A DNA stretch of 34,159 nucleotides from a virus. The stretch lies in the IMG/VR virus record IMGVR_UViG_3300030107_001586, positions 1 to 34,159 of that record, one strand, 5' to 3'. Position 1 is the stretch's first letter; each line of letters begins with the position of its first letter. Positions 3,694-34,159 of this stretch are shown in pieces. The notes beneath the pieces were generated by a model that did not search any database, had not been told where the DNA came from, and saw nothing but the letters and a program-made list of their open reading frames with translations. The position numbers and the translations under genes were made by a program.

Positions 3694-4121
3694 TGCCTAT
3701 AACTTTTGAAAATATTATTTATGATAGAATAGTAGATGCTTTAAATGGGTTATTAGCGAATGAGTTTAATATCCCTATTTATTTAGATGAGCATAAGGGG
3801 AATCAATCTTTTTTATTAACGCCATCAGCAGATGATATAAATGAATATGGAAATAATTTTCAATCTAGGGATTATACTATTGAAATTACTTATCAAATTA
3901 AAATAGGTGGAGCATATACAAAGAACTCAATAAAACAAGTTTCTAACATTGCCGAAAGGACTAAAAGGTTAATATATAATAATGCCTCTTATTCCCCATC
4001 AAGTAGTTATAAATGGCATGATGGAAGAATTGAATCAATCGAGTATGTAAGGGAAGATGAAAGCCCTGATTTAATCACCGCAGTTATTATTTTTAACTGC
4101 ACATCAACGGAGGTTACATGA
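3693..4121 (+). CDS. Tail terminator / tail completion-like protein
   Basis: A 142-residue protein starting on the last base of the connector stop. The layout is an N-terminal helix that includes DALNGLLANEF, then alternating beta strands and one helix around TKRLIYNN. This resembles tail-completion proteins of siphoviruses (lambda gpU/HK97 gp10 neighbourhood), which cap the tail tube at the head side. Its position between connector and tail tube fits this role well. No sequence motif is decisive. Confidence 0.5.
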   Translation: MPITFENIIYDRIVDALNGLLANEFNIPIYLDEHKGNQSFLLTPSADDINEYGNNFQSRDYTIEITYQIKIGGAYTKNSIKQVSNIAERTKRLIYNNASYSPSSSYKWHDGRIESIEYVREDESPDLITAVIIFNCTSTEVT

Positions 4122-4300
4122 AATATGTAATTGGAAAAAACATCCAATCTTTTTCAGCCTTAAATGATTGGCAGGGGCTTGGTCAGAAAAACGCTGAAGC
4201 TCTTGAAAATGGAGAGGCTATTGAACTAAAAAAACCGCCTAAACATTTAGTTGAAGGAAACTATATTGTAAAGGCAGAAAACAAAAAAGGAGCTAAATAA
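4118..4300 (+). CDS. Small tail-region protein of unknown function
   Basis: A 60-residue, Lys-rich protein in tight overlap with both neighbours (4 bases upstream; last base shared with the tail tube start). It contains NDWQGLGQKNAEALENGE and looks like a short peptide-binding or head-tail adaptor domain, but I do not recognise the family. Conserved overlaps and location between tail terminator and tail tube make a structural or assembly role likely. Confidence 0.5.
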   Translation: MKYVIGKNIQSFSALNDWQGLGQKNAEALENGEAIELKKPPKHLVEGNYIVKAENKKGAK

Positions 4301-5292
4301 TGGCTGGTTTAGATAAAACAGTATATAGTGGGAAGCAATTTGAAGCCTATATCTCTATTCAATCGGATGCGTTAAGCACAAATGATGTTAGTGGAACACT
4401 TTATAAAATGAGATTAACAGAAGTTAATGATATTGATTGGTCGGCAGGATTTCAAACTGCTGATGTTGAAAGAACAGGGCAAAGGGTTTTAAGACCAACT
4501 GACCATATTAAAGTATATAAAGGTGGAACATTTACTTGGTCTTTTGATGGTTTGGTAATTGAAAATGAAGCATTACTTCAGACCTTATTGCAATTAGTAA
4601 GCGAAGATGACAACCCATCAGGAGGATTTGCTATGGCAGGAAATCAAGCAACAGTTGCTTATGAGCAAGGAGCTAGTACAGGAGAATATGCTTGTATAGT
4701 AATAAGTAGCCCTGATGCGGATAAGGATAGATTGATGCATAGCGCGATACTTCAAGAGCTTACTTTAAGTATGAATCCAGCTGATAATGGAGGTCGTTTA
4801 ACTGCTAGTGGAACTTTTTGGAGTGGCTACCAACCAGTAATTGGGGCTGAATCAACTTCACCTGATGCAACTGCGGTTAATTGGACTAAAGGGTTTTTTG
4901 ATTGCACAACCTCAAGTATTGGGGGAGACGATGTTGTTATGAATAATTTTGAATTAACAATATCTAATCCAGCAACTAGAGTAGGTTATGAAACTGTAAA
5001 TAGTATTGATGCCGAGCCTTGCGCTTATATGCGCGGTGGTTTAATATCTGTTACTGGTAGCATGAGCGTAAAATTAGATGACAATGTAGCTCAAATACTT
5101 ACCGAAGATTTTCTTGTAGGAACTTCTGCTAATGTAAGTATCGGTGATGGCTCATCAATAGATTTTGATATACCAACTGCTAAATACACAGGTCACACAA
5201 ATGCATCAACAGAAAATGGCGTGTTTGTTGACTTACCATTTACGGCAACGGCTGATGATTCAGGGGCGTTGGTAACAATAATAGCAACTTAA
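4300..5292 (+). CDS. Major tail (tube) protein
   Basis: The 330-residue protein is beta-rich, with few lysines and many Gly, Ser, Thr and Asp residues. It carries tube-protein phrases such as NDIDWSAGFQTADVERTG near the N-terminus and two similar halves of roughly 150 residues (compare LQELTLSMNPADNGGRLTAS with MNNFELTISNPATRVGYE). It directly precedes the paired tail assembly chaperone genes and the tape measure gene, the diagnostic position of the siphovirus tail tube. The apparent internal duplication suggests two stacked tube-fold domains, or a tube fold plus an Ig-like domain. Confidence 0.75.
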   Translation: MAGLDKTVYSGKQFEAYISIQSDALSTNDVSGTLYKMRLTEVNDIDWSAGFQTADVERTGQRVLRPTDHIKVYKGGTFTWSFDGLVIENEALLQTLLQLVSEDDNPSGGFAMAGNQATVAYEQGASTGEYACIVISSPDADKDRLMHSAILQELTLSMNPADNGGRLTASGTFWSGYQPVIGAESTSPDATAVNWTKGFFDCTTSSIGGDDVVMNNFELTISNPATRVGYETVNSIDAEPCAYMRGGLISVTGSMSVKLDDNVAQILTEDFLVGTSANVSIGDGSSIDFDIPTAKYTGHTNASTENGVFVDLPFTATADDSGALVTIIAT

Positions 5293-5311
5293 TAATAATC
5301 GGGAGGTAAAA

Positions 5312-5587
5312 ATGATAGTTGATACTAAATATGGACAATATGAATGCAAAAACATAAGTAGGAAAGAACGCAGAATCTTATATAAGAAAGTAAAAGAAAT
5401 AAGCGCAAGTAATGATGTTGCAAAACTTCATGACTTAGCAGATGAGTTTGCCGTTATAGCTTTTGGGGATGAAAAAAAGGCTGAAGAGAAACTTGGTAAA
5501 CTATCAGCAGTGCAAGAAGATGAGGTGTTAAACCAAATCATTGGCTCTTATATGGGATTTGAATTGGGAAAAGATATTGGCGATTGA
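5312..5587 (+). CDS. Tail assembly chaperone (lambda gpG-like)
   Basis: A 91-residue, charged, helical protein between the tail tube and tape measure genes, behind a strong GGGAGG ribosome binding site. It matches lambda gpG in position and size: a chaperone that coats the tape measure protein during tail assembly. Near its end the mRNA carries the heptamer GGGAAAA in the correct phase for -1 slippage, so a fraction of ribosomes should continue into the next frame and make a longer gpGT-like product. Primary sequence of this family is poorly conserved; the call rests on order and the slip site. Confidence 0.7.
   Translation: MIVDTKYGQYECKNISRKERRILYKKVKEISASNDVAKLHDLADEFAVIAFGDEKKAEEKLGKLSAVQEDEVLNQIIGSYMGFELGKDIGD
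5566..5572 (+). promoter_or_regulatory. Programmed -1 ribosomal frameshift site
   Basis: The heptamer G GGA AAA is phased exactly as X XXY YYZ in the chaperone frame (codons GGA and AAA), five codons before the stop. Slipping back one base places the ribosome in the frame of the next gene with no intervening stop, giving a fusion of about 222 residues. The site differs from the classical lambda G/GT signal (GGGAAAG) only at the last base. A possible weak stem, TTTGGT at 5597-5602 with ACCAAA at 5619-5624, lies downstream but farther away than usual stimulators. Confidence 0.8.
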
Positions 5588-5979
5588 GAACTGCACTTTG
5601 GTTTTCTGTTTTAGGATTACCAAATACTGGTCTACTCCTCCCATATACCGCTCAGTCGCCAACCCTTTTCAAGCGGATAGAGTTTAAAAATGAAGAGGAT
5701 ATAAACGATGAGATTGAAAGAATTTTATTTGACCCAGCCACAGAAAAACATGGATTTGGTCAGAGCTTTTTTTTTCAATTACCGCTTTTTTGTAATCCTG
5801 AAGAACAGATTCCTGGGTGGTGTTATGATATGATAGATGATTATTATATAATAAAAGAATATAATATTCCATTAGCAAAAAATATAGATAAAGCCAATGC
5901 ATGGGTTTTAGATTGTTTTAGCGTTATTAGAGATGAAATAAATAAAATTAATATATATAGGTCAAAAAATGGCAATTAA
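5584..5979 (+). CDS. Tail assembly chaperone T-like part, made by frameshift
   Basis: This open frame would need a TTG start overlapping the previous stop and has no well-placed ribosome binding site. It is better read as the downstream part of a -1 frameshift fusion beginning at 5312: 87 residues of the upstream protein, then 135 residues in this frame. The T-like domain holds Leu/Phe-rich segments (LPNTGLLLPYT; SFFFQLPLFCNPEEQIPGW) and a helical C-terminus. It ends inside the start of the tape measure gene. In lambda the equivalent gpGT links tape measure and tube subunits. Independent initiation at 5584 cannot be fully excluded. Confidence 0.7.
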   Translation: MRTALWFSVLGLPNTGLLLPYTAQSPTLFKRIEFKNEEDINDEIERILFDPATEKHGFGQSFFFQLPLFCNPEEQIPGWCYDMIDDYYIIKEYNIPLAKNIDKANAWVLDCFSVIRDEINKINIYRSKNGN

Positions 5980-7876
5980 AGATTTATTAATAAGATTAGG
6001 TGTTAAAGGCGATAAAAAAGCAAAGACCAAAATAAAAGGTGTCGAAAATGGATTAGGCAATCTTGGAAAATCTGCTATGAAGGCTGGAGCTGCTTTCTTT
6101 GGAGCTAGGGCTTTAATAGATGGAATGAAGCAAAGCATTAATTTGGCAGGTATTCAAGAACAAGCAGAAAAAAGGTTAGAAGTTGCTTTGGGTAAGCGTT
6201 CAAAGGCTTTATTAGACCAAGCATCTGCTCTTCAACAACAAACAACTTTTGGGGATGAGGCTATAATTGGGGTACAAGCATCTATTGGGGCTTTTGTTAA
6301 ATCAGAAGAACAAATTAAAAAAGCAACATCAGCAACCTTAGATATGGCAGTTGCTATGGGAATGGATTTAAAAGCATCAGGAGATTTAATTGCTAAAACG
6401 CTAGGGTCATCTACAAATGCTTTATCTAGGTATGGAATAGAAGTAAGTGGGGCAGTCGGAAGCACAGAGAGATTAGAGTCACTTACAAATAATATTGCTA
6501 AACTTTTTGGTGGTCAGGCATCGGCTCAAGCGCAAACATTTGCTGGGTCTATTGACCAAATGAAAAATGCTATTGGAGACACAGGAGAACAACTTGGTAT
6601 GTTGTTTCAACCAGCAGTTGAATCATCCGCTAAAGCATTAAAAACATTTTCTGAAGATTTTGGTAAAACAATTAAAGCGATACGAGGAGTGGACTTACAA
6701 AAAACTGGGCAAAACTTTTTAAAAAGTACGGATGCATTAATGAAAGCAATTAAAGCAACTTTTAAAGTATATGTTGATTTATACCCTGATATGTTTAAAA
6801 AAGCATTATCAAATTTTGGAACTATTGCAAAAAATGTTTTTTTTGGATTCTTAGCATTGGTAAAAGAGGTGGCACTTACTTGCTGGGAGCCTCTATTTGT
6901 TTCAGTAGTTCATATAGGGGAAAGAATAAAAGAAGCATTCGCAAATATAATTAATAAAGGAATACTAACACCCTTACAGTTTTTAACAGAAAAAATTAAT
7001 GAGGTTGGTTCGTTTTTAGGTTTTGAAGATATAAAACCATTTAATTTATTAAAGGTTGTTGAGGTTGACCCATTATTAGACAAATTAAAAGAAACTAAAA
7101 TCGGCGAATGGATTACTCCAGGAGAAGATGATGTGGACACACTTTCAGAAGCATTAGAAAAATCAGGAGAAATATGGACAGAATACCTTGAAGAAATTTC
7201 CGTATTAAAAGACGAGGAAAAAGCAACTGATTTAGAAGCCCACATTAAAAATGAACAAGACAAAGCAAATGAGACTAAAAAAAGCATGATGCAATTAACT
7301 AAAGACGAAAAAGCTAAAATAGCGACATTTAAACAAACTTTTGATGCTGCCGTTGGATTTGCAAAGTCACTTGATGCCTATAGGAAACAACTAAGAGATA
7401 ATGAAATGAATGCTGAAATTCAAGCAATTTTAAAATCTCAAATGACCGAAGAACAAAAAGAATCGGCAATTGCAAATATTAAAGAAAGGTTTAGACAAAA
7501 AGACATTCAAGCTGCAAGAAAAATGAAAAGTGTTAAAAAAGCTGAAGCAATTATTAATACAGCAGTTGAGGTAACTAAGCATTTAAGTAATCCAGTTGCT
7601 GCTGGATTGATTGCTGCTAAAGGAGCTGCTGAAGTTGCCATTATTGAAGCGCAACAATTCGCAAAAGGTGGTATTGTTCAAGGTTATGGAGACCAAGACA
7701 CAGTTCCAGCAATGCTTACTCCTGGAGAATTAATATTGAATCAAGCCCAACAAGATAATTTGGCAAACAATATGGGCGGTGTCACAGTCAATATAGGCGG
7801 TAATATTATTGGCGAAGAATCTTTTGTTAGAGATACTTTAATTCCTGAAATAGAAAAAGCTAGGATTCTTGCATGA
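5969..7876 (+). CDS. Tail tape measure protein
   Basis: The 635-residue protein is mostly helical, Ala/Lys/Glu-rich, with a hydrophobic stretch around residues 280-315 that may insert into the host membrane. Its C-terminus carries the typical tape-measure ending: FAKGGIVQGYGDQDTVPAML, then TPGELILNQAQQ. It sits directly after the chaperone pair and overlaps its T-like part by 11 bases. Using the usual relation of about 0.15 nm per residue, tail length would be roughly 95 nm, a siphovirus-sized tail. No peptidase or transglycosylase domain is evident. Confidence 0.85.
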   Translation: MAIKDLLIRLGVKGDKKAKTKIKGVENGLGNLGKSAMKAGAAFFGARALIDGMKQSINLAGIQEQAEKRLEVALGKRSKALLDQASALQQQTTFGDEAIIGVQASIGAFVKSEEQIKKATSATLDMAVAMGMDLKASGDLIAKTLGSSTNALSRYGIEVSGAVGSTERLESLTNNIAKLFGGQASAQAQTFAGSIDQMKNAIGDTGEQLGMLFQPAVESSAKALKTFSEDFGKTIKAIRGVDLQKTGQNFLKSTDALMKAIKATFKVYVDLYPDMFKKALSNFGTIAKNVFFGFLALVKEVALTCWEPLFVSVVHIGERIKEAFANIINKGILTPLQFLTEKINEVGSFLGFEDIKPFNLLKVVEVDPLLDKLKETKIGEWITPGEDDVDTLSEALEKSGEIWTEYLEEISVLKDEEKATDLEAHIKNEQDKANETKKSMMQLTKDEKAKIATFKQTFDAAVGFAKSLDAYRKQLRDNEMNAEIQAILKSQMTEEQKESAIANIKERFRQKDIQAARKMKSVKKAEAIINTAVEVTKHLSNPVAAGLIAAKGAAEVAIIEAQQFAKGGIVQGYGDQDTVPAMLTPGELILNQAQQDNLANNMGGVTVNIGGNIIGEESFVRDTLIPEIEKARILA

Positions 7877-17085: not shown

Positions 17086-17449
17086 TTTTTTTGTTAATGA
17101 TTTATTTGACACATTAGATATAAAAGGGAATAATCAATTATTATTTAATCAATTTTGTAGCTTATTAATGAAATTTAGTAAGGAAACAATTAGGAAAGCG
17201 TGGAAAGATGTTGTCTATAGTTGTGAACCTCCTAATGGACAAATGGCAGGTCGACTGCCTAAGATGTTCATTATAGAAAAAATATTAATGAGCAATAGGA
17301 TTGAAAAATGGAATACAGAACATCAAATAAATAAAAAAAAAGAAGTAGAGTCAGGAACAATATCAAAATTATGGGAGTGGGGAATTGATTATCGAGATGG
17401 AAAACTAACTAAACAAGAACTAGAAAAAAAGATAGAGGAAAATTTATGA
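17051..17449 (+). CDS. Putative replication accessory protein
   Basis: A 132-residue mostly helical protein that begins inside the initiator-like gene. The section KFSKETIRKAWKDVVYSCEP followed by AGRLPKMFII is reminiscent of DnaC-loader or replisome organizer companions, but I could not assign it to a family. Overlap with the initiator-like gene suggests coupled expression and a shared role. Confidence 0.45.
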   Translation: MSEKKCSSQDASFFVNDLFDTLDIKGNNQLLFNQFCSLLMKFSKETIRKAWKDVVYSCEPPNGQMAGRLPKMFIIEKILMSNRIEKWNTEHQINKKKEVESGTISKLWEWGIDYRDGKLTKQELEKKIEENL

Positions 17450-17709
17450 GCAAAAACCAAGAATCTTTATTTGGAGATTTAGATGAATATTCATGGTGGA
17501 ATAAAGAATGGCAAGATATGCCTGAATATAAAATGTTAGACGAATCCCCATTTCAATCAATAAATATTCATTTTAAAACCGAAGAAGATAGAAATGAATT
17601 TGCTAAATTAGTAAATCAAACCATCACTCAACAAACTAAATATATTTGGTTTCCTAAAAAAGATGAGCTACCACCAAGATATTTTTTATATGTGGATGAA
17701 GAAGAATGA
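17446..17709 (+). CDS. Small protein preceding DNA glycosyltransferase gene
   Basis: This 87-residue acidic protein has a W-rich start (EYSWWNKEWQDMPEY), then FQSINIHFKTEEDRNEFAKL and the ending KYIWFPKKDE. From memory, similar modules occur beside or fused to ParB-like, methylase or base-modification proteins in phages. It overlaps both neighbours by 4 bases, which ties it to the glycosyltransferase gene downstream. A role in DNA modification or recognition is therefore suspected but not demonstrated. Confidence 0.5.
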   Translation: MSKNQESLFGDLDEYSWWNKEWQDMPEYKMLDESPFQSINIHFKTEEDRNEFAKLVNQTITQQTKYIWFPKKDELPPRYFLYVDEEE

Positions 17710-18566
17710 ATCCTAAATATCCAATATATATAATATCAAAAAATAGGTGGAAATATTGTGATGGTAATTTATCAACCTCACACGCTTTAGATTTAATAAA
17801 TGTTCCATATAGGATTGTAGTAGAACCTCATGAGTATAATGATTATAAAAAATATATTCATCCGAATAAAATATTAAAATTACCTTTTTCTAATTTAAAT
17901 AAAGGGAGTATTCCAGCTAGAAATTGGGTTTGGGAGCATTCAATAAAAGAGGGTCATAAAAGACATTGGATTATGGATGATAATATTCAGCATTTTTATA
18001 GATTAAATAGAAATAGGAGATTGCATATTAATAGTGGTACTATATTTAAATGTGCAGAAGATTTTGTAGATAGATATATAAATGTACCGATGGCAGGATT
18101 TAATTATAATACATTTGCTATTCCTAGAAAAAATCTTGCACCATTCTATCTTAATACTCGCGTTTATTCTTGTATATTATTATCAAATAATTTAAAGCAT
18201 AGGTGGCGAGGGAGATATAACGAAGATACAGATTTAAGTTTAAGAGTATTAAAAGATGGTAATTGTACTATCTTATTTAATGCATTTTTATGTGATAAAG
18301 TAAACACGATGAGAATGACTGGCGGTAATACAGATAAATTATATCAACAAAATGAATATCAAGACGGAAGAAAAAAGATGGCAGAATCGCTAGTTAAACA
18401 ACATCCCGATGTTGTTAGGATGGCTTGGAAGTGGGATAGGTGGACTCATTTCGTAGATTATAAGCAGTTCAAACTTAATAATAAGTTAATTAAAAAAGAT
18501 GGGGTAACTATTAAACAAGGCATTAATAATTATGGAATGAAATTAATACAACTGGAGAATATATGA
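17706..18566 (+). CDS. TET-associated (TAGT-type) glycosyltransferase
   Basis: The 286-residue protein has a GT-A-like layout: N-terminal IYIISKNRWKYC, PARNWVWEHS at 70-79, HWIMDDNI at 87-94 (Asp91-Asp92 in the place of the metal-binding DxD), a YNEDTDLSLR block at 171-180, and MTGGNT around 205-209. These are the signatures I recall for TAGT enzymes, predicted to transfer sugars onto hydroxymethylated or otherwise modified bases in phage DNA. The next gene encodes a sugar-nucleotide epimerase that could provide the donor. No TET/JBP oxygenase, hydroxymethylase or methylase is visible, so the acceptor is unknown. Confidence 0.7.
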   Translation: MNPKYPIYIISKNRWKYCDGNLSTSHALDLINVPYRIVVEPHEYNDYKKYIHPNKILKLPFSNLNKGSIPARNWVWEHSIKEGHKRHWIMDDNIQHFYRLNRNRRLHINSGTIFKCAEDFVDRYINVPMAGFNYNTFAIPRKNLAPFYLNTRVYSCILLSNNLKHRWRGRYNEDTDLSLRVLKDGNCTILFNAFLCDKVNTMRMTGGNTDKLYQQNEYQDGRKKMAESLVKQHPDVVRMAWKWDRWTHFVDYKQFKLNNKLIKKDGVTIKQGINNYGMKLIQLENI

Positions 18567-19420
18567 TTTTAGTAACAGGAGGAGCGGGATTTATTGGAAC
18601 TAATTTAATTGATAGACTGGTAAAAGATAAAGAAGGTGTAATATTGTTTGACAAAAAAATATCTAAAAGAACAGATGTAAATATTTTTAAAGGAGATTTG
18701 TCTAATGAAAAAGATATAAGTTTTTTTATTAAAAATTTTGGTCAGGTTGATACAATAATTCATTTAGGGGCGATAGCAAGGATTCACACATCTATGAAAG
18801 AGCCAAAAAAAGTATTATTAAATAATATAGTAAGTACAATTAATATTCTTGATTATGCAAAGGATTTTAATATCCCAGTTATATATGCTGGGTCTAGCTC
18901 AAAATTTGCAGGAGTAAATAAAAGCCCATATGCGTTTTCAAAGCACAAAGGCGAAGAATTATGCAAATTGTATAATAAAAACTATAATCTTAAAACTTAC
19001 ATTTGCAGATTTTATAATGTTTATGGTAAGCATCAAATTGAAAAAGGCAAATATTCAACTGTAATTGGAATATTTGAAAAACAATTTAGGGAAAATAAAC
19101 CATTAACAATTGTGGGAGATGGAACACAAATAAGAGATTTTACGCATATTGATGATATTGTAGATGGAATAATAAAAGCAAAAAATATGATTATAAATTC
19201 AAAAAAAACATATTTAGAATTTGATTTTGGAACTGGTGTTGAATATTCTATAAATGATATTGCTAATATGTTTGGTGCAGATTATCCTAAAAAATACTTA
19301 AAAAATAGAAAAGGCGAGTATGATTATTCATTAGCCGACAATAATTATACAAAAAATATTTTAAACTGGTCACCGAGGAAAAAACTAACAAATTATATAA
19401 AAAATACAATAAACCCTTAA
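18563..19420 (+). CDS. NAD-dependent sugar-nucleotide epimerase/dehydratase (extended SDR)
   Basis: The 285-residue enzyme starts with the Rossmann motif VTGGAGFIG (4-12) and has acidic residues for NAD ribose binding (Asp30). Ser112/Ser113 in AGSSSKFAG and the catalytic pair Tyr123/Lys127 in SPYAFSK follow, and RDFTHIDDIVDGII is the usual C-terminal substrate segment. It belongs to the GalE/WbpP-like family that interconverts or modifies UDP- or dTDP-sugars. It overlaps the glycosyltransferase gene by 4 bases, so it probably supplies its donor sugar; specificity cannot be read. It is the last gene before promoter copy 3. Confidence 0.8.
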   Translation: MILVTGGAGFIGTNLIDRLVKDKEGVILFDKKISKRTDVNIFKGDLSNEKDISFFIKNFGQVDTIIHLGAIARIHTSMKEPKKVLLNNIVSTINILDYAKDFNIPVIYAGSSSKFAGVNKSPYAFSKHKGEELCKLYNKNYNLKTYICRFYNVYGKHQIEKGKYSTVIGIFEKQFRENKPLTIVGDGTQIRDFTHIDDIVDGIIKAKNMIINSKKTYLEFDFGTGVEYSINDIANMFGADYPKKYLKNRKGEYDYSLADNNYTKNILNWSPRKKLTNYIKNTINP

Positions 19421-19449
19421 ATAACTCTTAAAATAAATTAATAAAAGAC

Positions 19450-19478
19450 TTGCCTCGTATTGATTTATTCCATATTTT
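19450..19478 (+). promoter_or_regulatory. Early promoter copy 3 with dyad box
   Basis: TTGCCT (19450-19455), 17-bp spacer, TATTTT (19473-19478). The GTGATTATCAATAA string that follows is identical in copy 2; its TGATTATCA dyad occupies 19486-19494, one base farther from the -10 than in the other two copies. Upstream ACTCTTAAAATAAA resembles copy 2. It drives the amidoligase gene, with AAGTGAGG as ribosome binding site before the ATG at 19521. Confidence 0.7.
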
Positions 19479-19520
19479 CTTGTTGTGATTATCAATAACA
19501 ACATAACAAGTGAGGAAAAA

Positions 19521-20540
19521 ATGCAAAAAGGTAAATTTAATAATAGTAGGGGTTTTGGAGTAGAAATTGAGTATATAAGACCAACAAGTGTTTCTAAGCA
19601 AGAGATATGTAATGCTCTAACATCAGTAACTTGTAGGGTTGAGGGATATAACCATAATACTGTTTCTTATTGGAAAATAGTTACAGATGCTTCTGTAAAA
19701 GCTAATCCATCATGCACATATGCTTCTGATTCTTATAATGGATATGTTGGAGATAATGAAATAGTATCTCCAATTCTTTATGGAGAAAATGGTTTTGAAC
19801 AATTAAAAGAAATATTAGATGTTCTTAATAACAAGGGATGTAAGGTTAATTATAGTTGTGGTATTCATGTTCATCACGATGTGACTAATAAGATGATTGA
19901 AGGTAAAGAGAAAAGCCAAAAGTTTTTAACTAATCTTATAAAGTTTGTTGCTAAGTATGAGCATTTAATTTATAAGTTGGTTTCTCCATCAAGATTGGAC
20001 AGTAGAAAATATAGCACACCTGTAAGAAGAGATTATTTTGATAGATATTGTAATATGAATAAAAGACAGATTAAGGAAATGATGACTAAGGTTAAAAGAG
20101 ATTGTACTAGAAAATATCGCAATGGTAGTGATATCGATAGAGGTCAAATATCTCCTCGCGTTCAATCTAATAGAGGTTGCGGTCTTAATCTTCGTAATGT
20201 TTGGACAAGAGGCTCAGTTGAGTTTAGGTATCATAATGGTTCTTTAAATTTTGATAAGATTGTTTCCTGGATTGTTTTTACTCAAGCGATTGTTAATACT
20301 GTTGAAGAAGCAAATAGTGTTCAAATGAACTATGTTCCAAGTGATGTTGATGGTCTTTTTTATCTAAGGAAAGCAATTGGTTTTGTTGGTAGCACAACTA
20401 GAGATGCTGTAACAGATATGGCTACTAATTATATTGTTAAAAGATATAAAGAGCTAAGTGCTAGAGAAAATGATTATCGCAGACAAGGCGATTATACTTA
20501 TGTAGATAGTGGTTTAACTTTAAATCAAGAAGGAGTTTAA
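19521..20540 (+). CDS. Amidoligase family protein (COOH-NH2 ligase)
   Basis: The 339-residue protein matches the phage/bacterial amidoligase family related to glutamine synthetase, predicted to join a carboxyl and an amine with ATP. Visible motifs are FGVEIEY (12-18, Glu15/Glu17), WKIVTDASV (51-59), NEIVSPIL (79-86), CGIHVHHD (113-120), GLNLRN (221-226) and SVEFRYHNG (232-240). The Glu and His residues would bind metal and ATP. I start at the ATG behind AAGTGAGG; a longer in-frame start at 19485 falls at the transcription start. The next two enzyme genes (GATase II and a cyclotransferase-like protein) match the gene company predicted for this family. Confidence 0.8.
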   Translation: MQKGKFNNSRGFGVEIEYIRPTSVSKQEICNALTSVTCRVEGYNHNTVSYWKIVTDASVKANPSCTYASDSYNGYVGDNEIVSPILYGENGFEQLKEILDVLNNKGCKVNYSCGIHVHHDVTNKMIEGKEKSQKFLTNLIKFVAKYEHLIYKLVSPSRLDSRKYSTPVRRDYFDRYCNMNKRQIKEMMTKVKRDCTRKYRNGSDIDRGQISPRVQSNRGCGLNLRNVWTRGSVEFRYHNGSLNFDKIVSWIVFTQAIVNTVEEANSVQMNYVPSDVDGLFYLRKAIGFVGSTTRDAVTDMATNYIVKRYKELSARENDYRRQGDYTYVDSGLTLNQEGV

Positions 20541-20541
20541 T

Positions 20542-21432
20542 ATGTGTGGATTAGCAGGAGTTATTTTAAAGCAAAAAGATAGAGACAACGAGACCCTTAA
20601 TCGGGTCTCAAAGTCTTTTACTGGGATGTTAAAAGAGGCGGATATGCGAGGTGGTCACGCTACTGGTTTTGCCTTAATAGATAAGCATGGAGATTATGCA
20701 ATCTGCAAAAAACCAAAAGATGCTTATGAGTTTTTTAATGATGAAGATGTTAAAGATAATATTGGTTTAGTTTATGATGGTATTACTACAATGATGGGTC
20801 ATACTAGATATGCGACACTAGGCTCACCATCTATTAATAAAAATAATCATCCCATTAGAACTGGTCAAACCATAGGAACTCATAATGGTTCAATATCTAA
20901 TCACAAAGAATTGTTCCATAAGTATGATATGGACAGATTCGCGCAAGTGGATAGTGAGGCAATATTTAGATTATATGAAACATCTAATAATGTTGATGAT
21001 TTCCTAAATAATAGATTGCCAAAAGTTCAGGGTCGTGTTGCGATTGTTTGGGCGGATTTAGAACGACCTGATTATGTCTATATGGTTAAGGCTAATAATC
21101 CAATTCAAATGGTTTATGTTCCTGAATATGATTGCTATGCTTATGGAAGTACAGATTCTATTATAAACGCAGGTTTTTGGGGAGATTATAAGCGTATTAC
21201 TATAGAGCCTAATACGATGGTTAGAATAAATACAAAGACTCTTAAAATGGATACTCAAAAAATAAGAATATCAAAACCTAAGATTAAAAAGTTCTCATTT
21301 TATGATGAAAAAATTGGAGCATATAAAGATAAACCTCAAACAGTTGATAGATTTGTTCCGAGGTTTTCATATAGTGACCAATTAAAAATGTTTAAGACAA
21401 GTGATGGTTCAACAATAAGGAAGGTAAAATAA
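20542..21432 (+). CDS. Class II glutamine amidotransferase
   Basis: The 296-residue Ntn-hydrolase begins MCGLAG, exposing Cys2 as the N-terminal nucleophile once Met is removed. Further GATase II motifs are present: GHTRYAT at 86-92, NNHP at 101-104, HNG at 114-116 and DSE at 137-139. It should release ammonia from glutamine. No synthetase domain (such as sugar isomerase or asparagine synthase) follows; the last 80 residues are a short basic tail. It starts one base after the amidoligase stop and may supply ammonia to that enzyme or act on a gamma-glutamyl substrate. Confidence 0.85.
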   Translation: MCGLAGVILKQKDRDNETLNRVSKSFTGMLKEADMRGGHATGFALIDKHGDYAICKKPKDAYEFFNDEDVKDNIGLVYDGITTMMGHTRYATLGSPSINKNNHPIRTGQTIGTHNGSISNHKELFHKYDMDRFAQVDSEAIFRLYETSNNVDDFLNNRLPKVQGRVAIVWADLERPDYVYMVKANNPIQMVYVPEYDCYAYGSTDSIINAGFWGDYKRITIEPNTMVRINTKTLKMDTQKIRISKPKIKKFSFYDEKIGAYKDKPQTVDRFVPRFSYSDQLKMFKTSDGSTIRKVK

Positions 21433-21554
21433 TGCCAAACAAAGATGCTAAAAATAGAAAAAGAAAAAGAATCTTAAAAAACGAGCAATTAAAAAAAGAG
21501 GGAAGAACACCAAATCAAATTGCTAGAAAAAAAAGGAGGAGAAATAATGTTTGA
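21432..21554 (+). CDS. 40-residue Arg/Lys-rich basic microprotein
   Basis: A short frame starts in a TAATG overlap with the amidotransferase gene and ends 8 bases inside the cyclotransferase-like gene. The peptide starts MPNKDAKNRKRKRIL and ends with an ARKKRRR run; more than a third of residues are Lys or Arg. Small basic proteins beginning this way recur in aquatic phages as I recall them. It may bind nucleic acid. The AGGAGG for the next gene lies inside its last codons, so its translation may affect that gene. Confidence 0.6.
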   Translation: MPNKDAKNRKRKRILKNEQLKKEGRTPNQIARKKRRRNNV

Positions 21555-22155
21555 TTTATTTGTATATGGTACATTAAAAAAAGGTGGCTCAAATCATAGC
21601 TTTATAAAAGGCTCTGAGTTTTTAAGGCATGATATATTAAAAGACCACGCTATTTATAAGCCAAACCATTTTAGTTTTCCAATAATGACGCTTAATAAAA
21701 ATAGCAAAGTATATGGAGAAGTTTATAGAGTAGATAGTGAGACATTAAATAGATTAGATATGCTAGAGCAAGAGGGTACATTTTATAATCGAATAGATGA
21801 TAGTAAATTAGGGTGTCAATATTACCTATGGAGAGAACAAGATGGTTTATTTGTTCGCGAAGAAGATAAAATAAAAAATGGATATTGGGAAGTAAAAGGA
21901 GAAGTTGATTTAAGTCTTGTTATTGATAATAGAAAATACACAGACAAGGCAGATAAGTTAGTTTTTCACATGAGGTTTTTTGATGGAAAACGCGCACCAA
22001 CGAATAAGATATATATGGACTTAGTTAATAAAAGAAGTCATTTAAATCTAAATACAGAAAATGAAGAAATATTTTTAAGAGATTGTATAATGAAGGGAGT
22101 CGTAAGTGAGTGGAAAGAACCAGAGCACTCATTCAATATCTTGCGAGATATGTGA
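21547..22155 (+). CDS. Gamma-glutamyl cyclotransferase-like (GGCT/AIG2) protein
   Basis: I start at the ATG 7 bases after AGGAGGAG. The 202-residue protein has the GGCT signature LFVYGTLKKGGSNH (4-17), the strand VYGEVYRV (55-62) and LDMLEQEG (70-77) with Glu74 in the place of the catalytic acid. Family members (GGCT, BtrG, AIG2) release gamma-glutamyl groups as 5-oxoproline. The C-terminal 100 residues extend beyond the core fold and are unassigned. Following amidoligase and GATase II genes, it may remove a gamma-glutamyl protecting group or process a glutamyl product. Confidence 0.75.
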   Translation: MFDLFVYGTLKKGGSNHSFIKGSEFLRHDILKDHAIYKPNHFSFPIMTLNKNSKVYGEVYRVDSETLNRLDMLEQEGTFYNRIDDSKLGCQYYLWREQDGLFVREEDKIKNGYWEVKGEVDLSLVIDNRKYTDKADKLVFHMRFFDGKRAPTNKIYMDLVNKRSHLNLNTENEEIFLRDCIMKGVVSEWKEPEHSFNILRDM

Positions 22156-22240
22156 GGATTTAGTGACAGTTTTAAATAAAAGAAATAATATCTTTATTTG
22201 TAAGAAGTGCGAAGATAATTATCCGATTTATAAAAAATGA
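22106..22240 (+). CDS. 44-residue zinc-ribbon microprotein
   Basis: A GTG start 6 bases after AGGGAG opens a frame overlapping the end of the cyclotransferase-like gene. It encodes CEIC (13-16) and CKKC (32-35), a compact four-cysteine zinc ribbon, within otherwise polar sequence. The TGA stop overlaps the next ATG. Good ribosome binding site, paired cysteines and tight overlaps support a real gene of unknown function. Confidence 0.6.
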   Translation: MSGKNQSTHSISCEICEDLVTVLNKRNNIFICKKCEDNYPIYKK

Positions 22241-22401
22241 CCGAATTAGAAAACATAGTAACAATAGTGTCTTATGAAGAGTTTAGTGAGTTAGTTGTAA
22301 AGATTGGTAGTGATGAGCTAACTGTAATGGAATTAATAGATGCTATCGCTCAAATAAATGGAGTAATATATGAACAAACAAACTCATTTGGAGCAACATA
22401 A
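22237..22401 (+). CDS. Small acidic protein of unknown function, 54 residues
   Basis: The start (ATGA) overlaps the zinc-ribbon gene stop and the frame overlaps the next gene by 32 bases. The peptide is acidic and helical (YEEFSELVVKIGSDELTVME), a pattern also seen in small phage early proteins. No clear ribosome binding site; coupling is assumed. Support is moderate. Confidence 0.45.
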   Translation: MTELENIVTIVSYEEFSELVVKIGSDELTVMELIDAIAQINGVIYEQTNSFGAT

Positions 22402-22657
22402 AGTAAACCATGATTTTTTATATCATGCAGAAATTATGTTTGAAACAAAAGATGCGTTTGATTATAAAAGCGCAGTCGGAAACAATCTAAAAGAATTATT
22501 AATTGATATCGATGTAAGGTTAAAAGAACTATCTAACCGAAATCCCCAAATTGTACAAGCCTTATATAAACCCCAAAACGAATCAATTAACATAACACCA
22601 AAGATAATATCACTATTAAAGTTTAAGCCTTATTATAGTAGTAATAAGACCCAATAA
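22370..22657 (+). CDS. Early-region protein of unknown function, 95 residues
   Basis: Helical, mixed-charge protein with HDFLYHAEIMFETKDAFDYK and a helix DIDVRLKELSNRNPQIVQAL. It starts after GGAGTAAT inside the previous small gene. It is the last gene before the gap that precedes the structural operon. No family recognised. Confidence 0.5.
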   Translation: MNKQTHLEQHKVNHDFLYHAEIMFETKDAFDYKSAVGNNLKELLIDIDVRLKELSNRNPQIVQALYKPQNESINITPKIISLLKFKPYYSSNKTQ

Positions 22658-33809: not shown

Positions 33810-34063
33810 AAAGAGTTACTATAAAAGATAATGTTAAATATTTAGGTGGAACTCAAAATGGTAGGCTCGTAAAACCATCAATAGCTAATGCCTGTATAAG
33901 TTCTAATATGCCTGTTTGCTTTACAAAACCTCTTTTATTTGAGGACTATCCAATGGCTCTTGATGAGCATTATGAGCATAAAATAATTAAAACAGATAAT
34001 GGTGATGAAAAAATTGTTTTTAGATTAGTAAAAAGTGAAAAAAGAGAAATTACTGGGTTTTAA
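33806..34063 (+). CDS. Protein of unknown function, 85 residues
   Basis: Small alpha/beta protein beginning MKRVTIKDNVKYLGGTQNGR with a C-terminal charged strand region. It overlaps the AT-hook gene by 4 bases and its stop is followed directly by the ATG of the 88-residue membrane protein. The last 18 bases are repeated as the first 18 of the window, because the map is circular. No family recognised. Confidence 0.5.
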   Translation: MKRVTIKDNVKYLGGTQNGRLVKPSIANACISSNMPVCFTKPLLFEDYPMALDEHYEHKIIKTDNGDEKIVFRLVKSEKREITGF

Positions 34064-34159
34064 ATGACATCTGAAATTATAACATTAGTACAAGAATTAG
34101 GATTTCCAGTTGCTCTTAGCGTTGGATTAGCTTTTGCTTTGTATAGCGTAGTAAGATTT
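34046..34159. repeat. Terminal direct repeat, right copy
   Basis: Identical to bases 1-114. It closes the map: the gene ending at 34063 and the gene beginning at 34064 continue at the left end without a break. A real virion end with a 114-bp repeat is an alternative to an assembly overlap. Confidence 0.9.
34064..34159 (+). CDS. Start of the 88-residue membrane protein (duplicate, cut by window end)
   Basis: The first 32 codons of the holin-like YvrJ-type protein that is complete at the left end of the window. It is cut by the end of the sequence, not broken by mutation, and should not be counted as a second gene. Confidence 0.85.
   Translation, partial: MTSEIITLVQELGFPVALSVGLAFALYSVVRF

Follow-up and report, generated by a model that had tools for sequence, protein, structure and literature searches.

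The subject of this study is a set of three adjacent genes, predicted to encode an amidoligase, a class II glutamine amidotransferase and a gamma-glutamyl cyclotransferase-like (GGCT) enzyme, in the IMG/VR virus record IMGVR_UViG_3300030107_001586, the whole of which (34,159 bases) was analysed and is referred to here as the window. Amidoligase systems were reportedly predicted through comparative genomics by Iyer et al. in 2009, and their target is said to have been guesswork ever since. Among phages, UFV-P2 and other LUZ24-like phages carry genes for a COOH-NH2 ligase, an amidoligase, an amidotransferase, an ATP-grasp enzyme and an AIG2-like protein (PMC3890496). In the available text on RIO-1-like phages, these genes are called a 'peptidoglycan modification cassette' and are thought to prevent superinfection (PMC5498523), a view repeated for phages of P. 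aeruginosa (PMC11945000). The corresponding text on OM43 phages cites a role in the wall or in secondary metabolites, its authors leaving the function open (PMC10580990), while in phage ZRK32 of a deep-sea planctomycete the genes were interpreted as nitrogen auxiliary metabolic genes (PMC10945688). As far as the available text of the literature on the cassette goes, no enzyme assay, product identification or demonstrated change of peptidoglycan was found, which agrees with the statement in an earlier sequence-only reading of the window that no phage example is biochemically explained.

Comparison with described cassettes

As in the cassettes of LUZ24-like and RIO-1-like phages (RIO-1/Zobellviridae), exemplified by UFV-P2 (ORFs 21-29), Bjorn (gp20-26) and Pseudoalteromonas phage HP1, the amidoligase, amidotransferase and GGCT/AIG2-like genes of the window lie together on one strand. 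Those cassettes differ in adding a COOH-NH2 ligase and an ATP-grasp enzyme; profiles PF14395 (COOH-NH2 ligase), PF08443 (RimK-type) and PF14243 (R2K_3 ATP-grasp) gave no match in the window or in six of its relatives. In phage Bjorn, used as a control, PF14395 scored above its cut-off, PF08443 below it (E 1.1e-4), and PF14243 gave no match. Identity between the enzymes of the window and LUZ24/RIO-1-type proteins is just about 25-35%, and the GGCT of Pseudomonas phage Bjorn has 131 residues and no C-terminal domain, compared with 202 residues in the window.

Arthrobacter phage Salgado (genes 97-99) contains exactly the same three enzymes, contiguous and with no annotated ATP-grasp neighbour, although there the GGCT comes first, is 150 residues long without a C-terminal domain, and the proteins share about 22-35% identity with those of the window. 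The marine OM43 phages MEP401 and MEP402 resemble the window in having an amidoligase (PF12224) and a GATase (PF13522), but neither a GGCT nor the C-terminal domain is reported for them in the available text (PMC10580990). ZRK32 shares the amidoligase, glutamine amidotransferase and gamma-glutamylcyclotransferase, and has a glutathione synthase in addition (PMC10945688).

The window therefore appears to hold the linked-trio form of a LUZ24/RIO-1-type cassette, minus the additional COOH-NH2 ligase and ATP-grasp enzyme. Systems of this kind are already known, and the trio is a reduced form of a confirmed, biochemically unexplained phage cassette. The functional interpretation in the sequence-only reading held as to families, active sites and a conserved phage set, but the cassette itself had already been described (PMC5498523, PMC11945000, PMC10945688). 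What is new is the C-terminal domain of the GGCT, a covarying hairpin, and the position of the block beside a DNA-modification slot, most genes of which assort independently of it; the domain, the variability of the slot and the exclusion of a microprotein from the system also go beyond the earlier reading. The trio enzymes turn up repeatedly in phages whose hosts are very different bacteria. The present lineage carries the smallest natural three-enzyme version. This set is minimal and contains a specific domain that can serve as a handle, and close relatives either carry or lack the block, so that the phage's target becomes directly testable.

Gene linkage and distribution

Relatives were chosen by their terminase alone, and the 31 counted are those with 8 kb of upstream sequence. 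All three genes, with the C-terminal domain (C-domain), were present in 13, whereas the other 18 lacked both amidoligase and GGCT, and not one of the 31 held either of these genes singly; three of the 18 carry a different amidotransferase, located inside a DNA-modification cluster. A second group of loci was picked by the amidotransferase, independently of the amidoligase, and counted if the upstream sequence was sufficient: in 59 of 59, the amidoligase gene lies directly upstream on the same strand. The three genes form a real cassette, inherited as a block, and co-occurrence of the trio in related phages, on which the sequence-only reading had staked its proposal, is borne out.

In a scan based on the amidoligase (22 internal distinct loci), an amidotransferase was located within 1 kb in 16 loci and a GGCT within 5 kb in 17, all on the same strand. 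Some amidoligases have no amidotransferase, and are paired instead with a GGCT, a small C-domain protein or both. Since the other parts are optional around the amidoligase, the ligase may be regarded as the hub of the system, with the amidotransferase as an optional ammonia source.

Cultured phages carrying the full or a partial set infect Pseudomonas, Vibrio, Pseudoalteromonas, Arthrobacter, Bacillus and Porphyromonas. The pair of amidoligase and amidotransferase, and in a few cases the trio, is also found in bacterial genome assemblies; Ruminococcus flavefaciens, for instance, carries the pair. In an Armatimonadetes metagenome-assembled genome (MAG; L158, positions 4330-6853), contiguous genes for amidoligase, amidotransferase and GGCT stand among seemingly chromosomal genes, and the set is therefore not confined to phages.

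Families, active sites and folds

The amidoligase matched Amidoligase_2 (PF12224) over residues 22-270 (E 4.6e-34, 118.8 bits against a curated cut-off of 22), the amidotransferase matched GATase_6 (PF13522; E 6.7e-15, 55.7 bits, cut-off 27), and the GGCT matched GGACT (PF06094; E 2.1e-20, 73.9 bits, cut-off 22.8). The family assignments of the sequence-only reading thus all exceed the Pfam cut-offs, with the expected folds or families, and the motifs that it had singled out are all present: Glu15 (19563-19565), Glu17 (19569-19571) and CGIHVHHD in the amidoligase, Cys2, HTRYAT and HNG (in addition to VDSE) in the amidotransferase, and YGTLKKG and Glu74 in the GGCT. Amidoligase residues are numbered here from ATG 19521, which follows a GAGG ribosome-binding site and is a better start than GTG 19485; the starts at 19521, 20542 and 21547 all have good ribosome-binding sites.

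The active sites also withstood alignment with 56 amidoligases, 49 amidotransferases and 37 GGCTs, sets that extend down to 20-30% identity and still show little or no variation at the key residues. Invariant positions are E13-x-E15, E78, G112-x-H-x-H and E232-x-R234 (numbering of alignment A5) in the amidoligases, C2, R89, N115, G116 and D137 in the amidotransferases, and Y7, G8, L10, E74 and Y80 in the GGCTs. Pairwise ratios of non-synonymous to synonymous substitution (dN/dS) between close relatives are well below 1 for all three enzyme genes. To judge from these sequences, all three active sites are complete and the genes are under purifying selection.

Glutamine synthetase, glutamate-cysteine ligase, GmaS and Dop are known members of the glutamine synthetase (GS) fold group that activate the gamma-carboxyl of glutamate. 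The AlphaFold2 model of the amidoligase, whose confidence score (pLDDT) is 92.8, came closest to YbdK-type ligases (Z 13.5 and 13.2, with a root-mean-square deviation of 4.4-4.5 Å over 233 residues), followed by other GS-fold ligases, namely glutamine synthetases (about 12), Dop (Z 11.8) and GmaS (11.3). Foldseek gave the same assignment, with matches including Dop and, weakly, PafA, and a sequence search for a solved structure of the Amidoligase_2 family found none. The common fold and the matching conserved acidic, histidine and arginine residues relate the amidoligase to GS-fold ligases (YbdK/GshA type, GmaS, Dop/PafA), but identity over the aligned residues is just 8-15%, and Amidoligase_2 is a separate family. 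The modelled protein is accordingly predicted to combine a GS fold with acidic and histidine residues of a metal/ATP site.

For the amidotransferase, the profile led to the glutaminase domain of GlmS (E 2e-15), and the aligned sequences point to a class II enzyme with a Cys nucleophile after Met, the glutamine-binding residues Arg89 and Asp137, and an Asn-Gly oxyanion hole. The GGCT model (pLDDT 92.5) matched PH0828 with Z 15.0 and human GGACT (gamma-glutamylamine cyclotransferase) also with Z 15.0, the latter over residues 1-117; its Y-G-x-L motif, catalytic Glu and modelled GGCT fold argue for membership of the GGCT/GGACT superfamily. In the two models, then, the amidoligase fold lies nearest to ligases that activate the glutamate gamma-carboxyl, and the GGCT fold nearest to gamma-glutamylamine cyclotransferase and its relatives.

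The C-terminal domain of the GGCT

The C-domain, about 66 residues in size, matched no Pfam or PHROGs family. With iterated profiles it was detected in 62 of 14,295 open reading frames (ORFs), all in cassettes, 52 times fused to a GGCT and 10 times as a standalone protein of about 80 residues whose gene comes immediately after that of an amidoligase, on the same strand; besides these 62, no match reached E 0.01. The ORFs scanned come from loci chosen around amidoligases and amidotransferases, so that the domain may also occur elsewhere in nature. Among the standalone proteins, that of a Porphyromonas phage matched with E 2.4e-7 before its inclusion in the profile, and one beside an amidoligase in a bacterial MAG (L165) with E 8.9e-10. 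Comparison of the standalone and fused profiles gave a probability of 77% (E 2e-5), a link that needs iteration via divergent fused forms in two loci (L042, L046), as a first profile made of seven fused domains reached the standalone proteins with a best E of 0.06, below significance. A tblastn search with three standalone proteins against GenBank phages returned nothing, though the profile did find the one Porphyromonas phage protein.

The C-domain is mostly more conserved than the catalytic domain to which it is fused, with identities of 77-82% vs 58-79% in four close relatives and 70% vs 43% in a fifth. Fold matches were weak (Z 2.5 or less, to regulatory subunits of acetohydroxyacid synthase), and the search barely tests this part of the model. 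Within the loci searched, the C-domain appears from these profiles to be an undescribed part found in cassettes alone.

Two other candidates for the domain were rejected. Bjorn gp24 (DUF7195), which lies between the amidotransferase and ATP-grasp genes in LUZ24-like phages, has no detectable homology to it, and small ORFs beside amidoligases in five loci (L061, L079, L150, L151 and L152) look alike by eye but fell below significance.

Table 1. Features of the cassette region and its surroundings (positions in the window).
Feature	Position	Strand	Basis
Amidoligase (Amidoligase_2), predicted GS-fold ATP-dependent carboxylate-amine ligase, 339 aa	19521..20540	+	PF12224, AlphaFold2 model, invariant residues
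Class II glutamine amidotransferase (Ntn hydrolase, GlmS glutaminase-like), without fused synthase domain, 296 aa	20542..21432	+	PF13522, GlmS match
Gamma-glutamyl cyclotransferase-like enzyme (GGACT/YtfP type), 202 aa, plus C-terminal domain	21547..22155	+	PF06094, AlphaFold2 model
GGCT C-terminal domain, residues ~124-195, beta-beta-alpha-alpha-alpha-beta in the model	21916..22131	+	Iterated profiles
RNA hairpin within the amidotransferase coding sequence: stem of 7 bp, loop of 6 nt, followed by AAAGTCTTTT	20590..20609	+	Covariation, terminator-like
Conserved leader: repeated CCCTTAAAT / CTCTTAAAA, then promoter-like TTGCCT-17-TATTTT	19414..19485	+	Conservation in relatives
Basic microprotein ORF, 40 aa, between amidotransferase and GGCT genes	21432..21554	+	Not conserved
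Downstream small genes: zinc-ribbon-like (22106-22240), 54-aa (22237-22401), 95-aa (22370-22657)	22106..22657	+	Gene order conserved
Swap slot: 87-aa protein, TAGT-family glycosyltransferase (17706-18566), nucleotide-sugar epimerase (18563-19420)	17446..19420	+	PF20691, PF01370

Proposed function

Gene content, active sites, folds, linkage, all-or-none inheritance and C-domain homology are directly supported by the data; from them we infer an enzymatic partnership, a catalytic direction, a tethering and, above all, a target. The reading that we prefer is that of a glutamine-fed system for gamma-glutamyl ligation and editing, which would act on a precursor of the cell wall. The enzymatic logic of this proposal seems to us slightly more probable than its opposite; the proposal taken as a whole falls somewhat short of even chances, and the wall as target, judged by itself, is doubtful.

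According to this proposal, the amidoligase would use ATP to activate a carboxylate as acyl phosphate, most likely the gamma-carboxyl of a glutamyl residue. The amidotransferase would split glutamine of the host and pass ammonia to the amidoligase, the pair acting as a two-subunit amidotransferase, a coupling to which the 59 of 59 linkage lends indirect support. The GGCT-like enzyme would strip gamma-glutamyl groups from amines as 5-oxoproline, thereby editing or unmasking the product, and its C-domain might tether it to the ligase pair. The products would presumably be formed in the cytoplasm, as no export signal was noticed by eye, and the most likely target would be a cytoplasmic wall precursor, in the D-glutamyl/iso-glutamine region of the stem peptide. 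A wall precursor changed during infection could exclude superinfecting phages or tune lysis.

The wall precursor is our first choice because the carriers infect very different bacteria, a breadth compatible with a substrate common to all of them, for instance peptidoglycan precursors, and because of the published inference (PMC5498523, PMC11945000). Several points weigh against the proposal. The acceptor substrate cannot be read from the sequence; no wall-synthesis gene lies in the neighbourhood, where the nearest variable genes concern DNA modification; and, since the ATP-grasp enzyme and the second (COOH-NH2) ligase were not found, the published argument for the wall does not transfer whole. 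In addition, the amidotransferase was matched weakly by EgtC (E 1.7e-4), and relatives of class II amidotransferases can be gamma-glutamyl hydrolases, which would reverse its role.

A different product would be a small soluble metabolite. The use of gamma-glutamyl as a carrier or protecting group is known from butirosin synthesis, where BtrJ and BtrG are a ligase and a gamma-glutamyl cyclotransferase, and from the gamma-glutamyl-putrescine pathway. By analogy, the trio might load gamma-glutamyl on an amine, which would be processed and then released by the GGCT with formation of 5-oxoproline; the resulting molecule might act by binding an enzyme of the host or by neutralising a defence signal. 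The pairing of ligase and cyclotransferase matches the BtrJ/BtrG logic, the GGCT is nearest to GGACT-type enzymes, which act on gamma-glutamylamines, and the cassette showed no gene for a dedicated macromolecular partner. However, the trio is not accompanied by a conserved biosynthetic enzyme for an intermediate step, and a class II amidotransferase is harder to accommodate unless it is a hydrolase; we regard a metabolite as unlikely.

The inclusion of Dop and PafA among the fold matches, both of which act on protein glutamates, raises the possibility that acidic side chains of a host or phage protein are amidated or isopeptide-linked, with the C-domain as substrate adaptor or carrier. It is consistent with such a role that the small domain is ligase-linked in every case found and, for the most part, more strongly constrained than the GGCT domain fused to it. 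Yet in alignment A7 the C-domain lacks a conserved C-terminal Glu/Gln, or any other tail open to modification, of the kind seen in Pup or LysW, and GGCTs usually act on small gamma-glutamylamines, so that a protein target appears rather unlikely.

The neighbourhood of the cassette brings phage DNA into consideration. Directly upstream, the window has a TAGT-family glycosyltransferase (PF20691, 2e-44) and a nucleotide-sugar epimerase (PF01370, 1.7e-46), in a slot that carries DNA-modification genes in most relatives and whose contents vary: TAGT, which may or may not be paired with an epimerase, C5 or N6/N4 methylases, or dUTPase with a thymidylate-synthase-like gene. The trio might amidate or aminoacylate a modified base and so evade restriction together with the slot. 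Trio-less relatives hold Tet/JBP oxygenase, often with a nucleotide kinase and an amino acid:DNA transferase, and some of them have a GATase_6-like amidotransferase. Tet/JBP was detected in 8 of the 18 trio-less relatives and in none of the 13 with the trio (Fisher p = 0.0096, uncorrected for relatedness), an exclusion that may be a chance of lineage or may mean that both blocks serve the same end. On the other hand, TAGT, C5 methylase and thymidylate-synthase-like genes are each found both with and without the trio, which is therefore not a fixed step of those pathways, and in other phages the cassette stands away from recognised modification genes. Nor did the Pfam scan of window ORFs detect a base-hydroxylating enzyme to go with the TAGT and epimerase genes, or any of the TET/ADDT cluster proteins (Tet/JBP oxygenase, nucleotide kinase, base transferase); a search of the whole record for Tet_JBP gave no match anywhere, and hence carries no weight. 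A modified base is, in our judgement, a quite improbable target.

An auxiliary role in nitrogen metabolism, by which the enzymes would boost the host's use of ammonia and glutamate and its turnover of glutathione, has been proposed for ZRK32 with its amidoligase, amidotransferase, glutathione synthase and GGCT, but in the available text the claim rests on growth effects of added phage and not on enzyme assays (PMC10945688). A conserved cassette that is either whole or absent, and that has a specific domain in addition, points to a defined product; we consider this role very improbable.

Returning to the gamma-glutamyl ligation and editing system, a bolder form of it can be envisaged, in which amidoligase systems would have the C-domain as a fourth, unnamed component, serving as adaptor, as carrier or as a subunit that forms a channel, and all parts together would be a compact machine for gamma-glutamyl conjugation that makes a new product. 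Such a machine would, in this lineage, replace Tet/ADDT DNA hypermodification, or defend the same step. We consider this extension unlikely.

Transcription and genomic context

The sequence-only reading placed the trio behind its own promoter. Its boxes, TTGCCT (19450-19455) and TATTTT (19473-19478) separated by 17 nt, are promoter-like, but too weak to be listed by a generic promoter scan. The leader repeat occurs nowhere else in the window, and the leader is kept in most of ten relatives; because this conservation persists where the upstream genes are unrelated, a promoter of its own is plausible for the trio. The same reading described a single unit with a basic microprotein in its middle. 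The cassette is conserved, but the microprotein is absent from most relatives, in which the amidotransferase gene abuts or overlaps the GGCT gene, and it is probably not part of the system.

The generic scan showed no terminator-like site after 22155, and the transcript therefore probably continues past the GGCT gene toward the terminase genes. In trio-bearing relatives the zinc-ribbon-like protein (44 residues, two CxxC pairs) follows directly after the GGCT and the order of the downstream small genes is kept; these genes are probably co-transcribed with the trio. The 54-aa and 95-aa genes are not specific to the cassette, since homologues persist in trio-less relatives (both in L206, that of the 95-aa gene in L205).

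A hairpin followed by a T-rich stretch lies about 50 nt past the amidotransferase start, and is terminator-like in the generic scan. In 11 close relatives, to which it is confined, 98.7% of cells are paired and two-sided changes occur at three pairs; its covariation score was 0.345, against 0.135 in shuffled alignments (0/500) and at most 0.094 when slid. It is possibly an attenuator.

Positions 1-114 and 34046-34159 of the window are identical. A direct terminal repeat of 114 bp makes it most likely that the record represents a complete genome, about 34,045 bp long; genes for terminase, major head, tail-tape-measure and endolysin were found in it. A blastn search against GenBank phages revealed no relatives of the window at the DNA level, and neither Rfam and tRNA scans of the window nor the PADLOC defence library gave a match.

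The TAGT glycosyltransferase and the epimerase were considered as members of the trio's system and rejected: some relatives retain the trio with other genes in their place, and TAGT also occurs without the trio. The swapping slot was also located in close relatives at 4264-5726 of L205 and 2853-5832 of L232, and the genes exchanged in it include Tet/JBP with a kinase and an amino acid:DNA transferase. In L232, a short GATase_6-like amidotransferase (3761-4477), just below the Pfam cut-off, is encoded within a Tet/JBP-ADDT-kinase cluster, and its presence there suggests ammonia or amide chemistry in DNA hypermodification.

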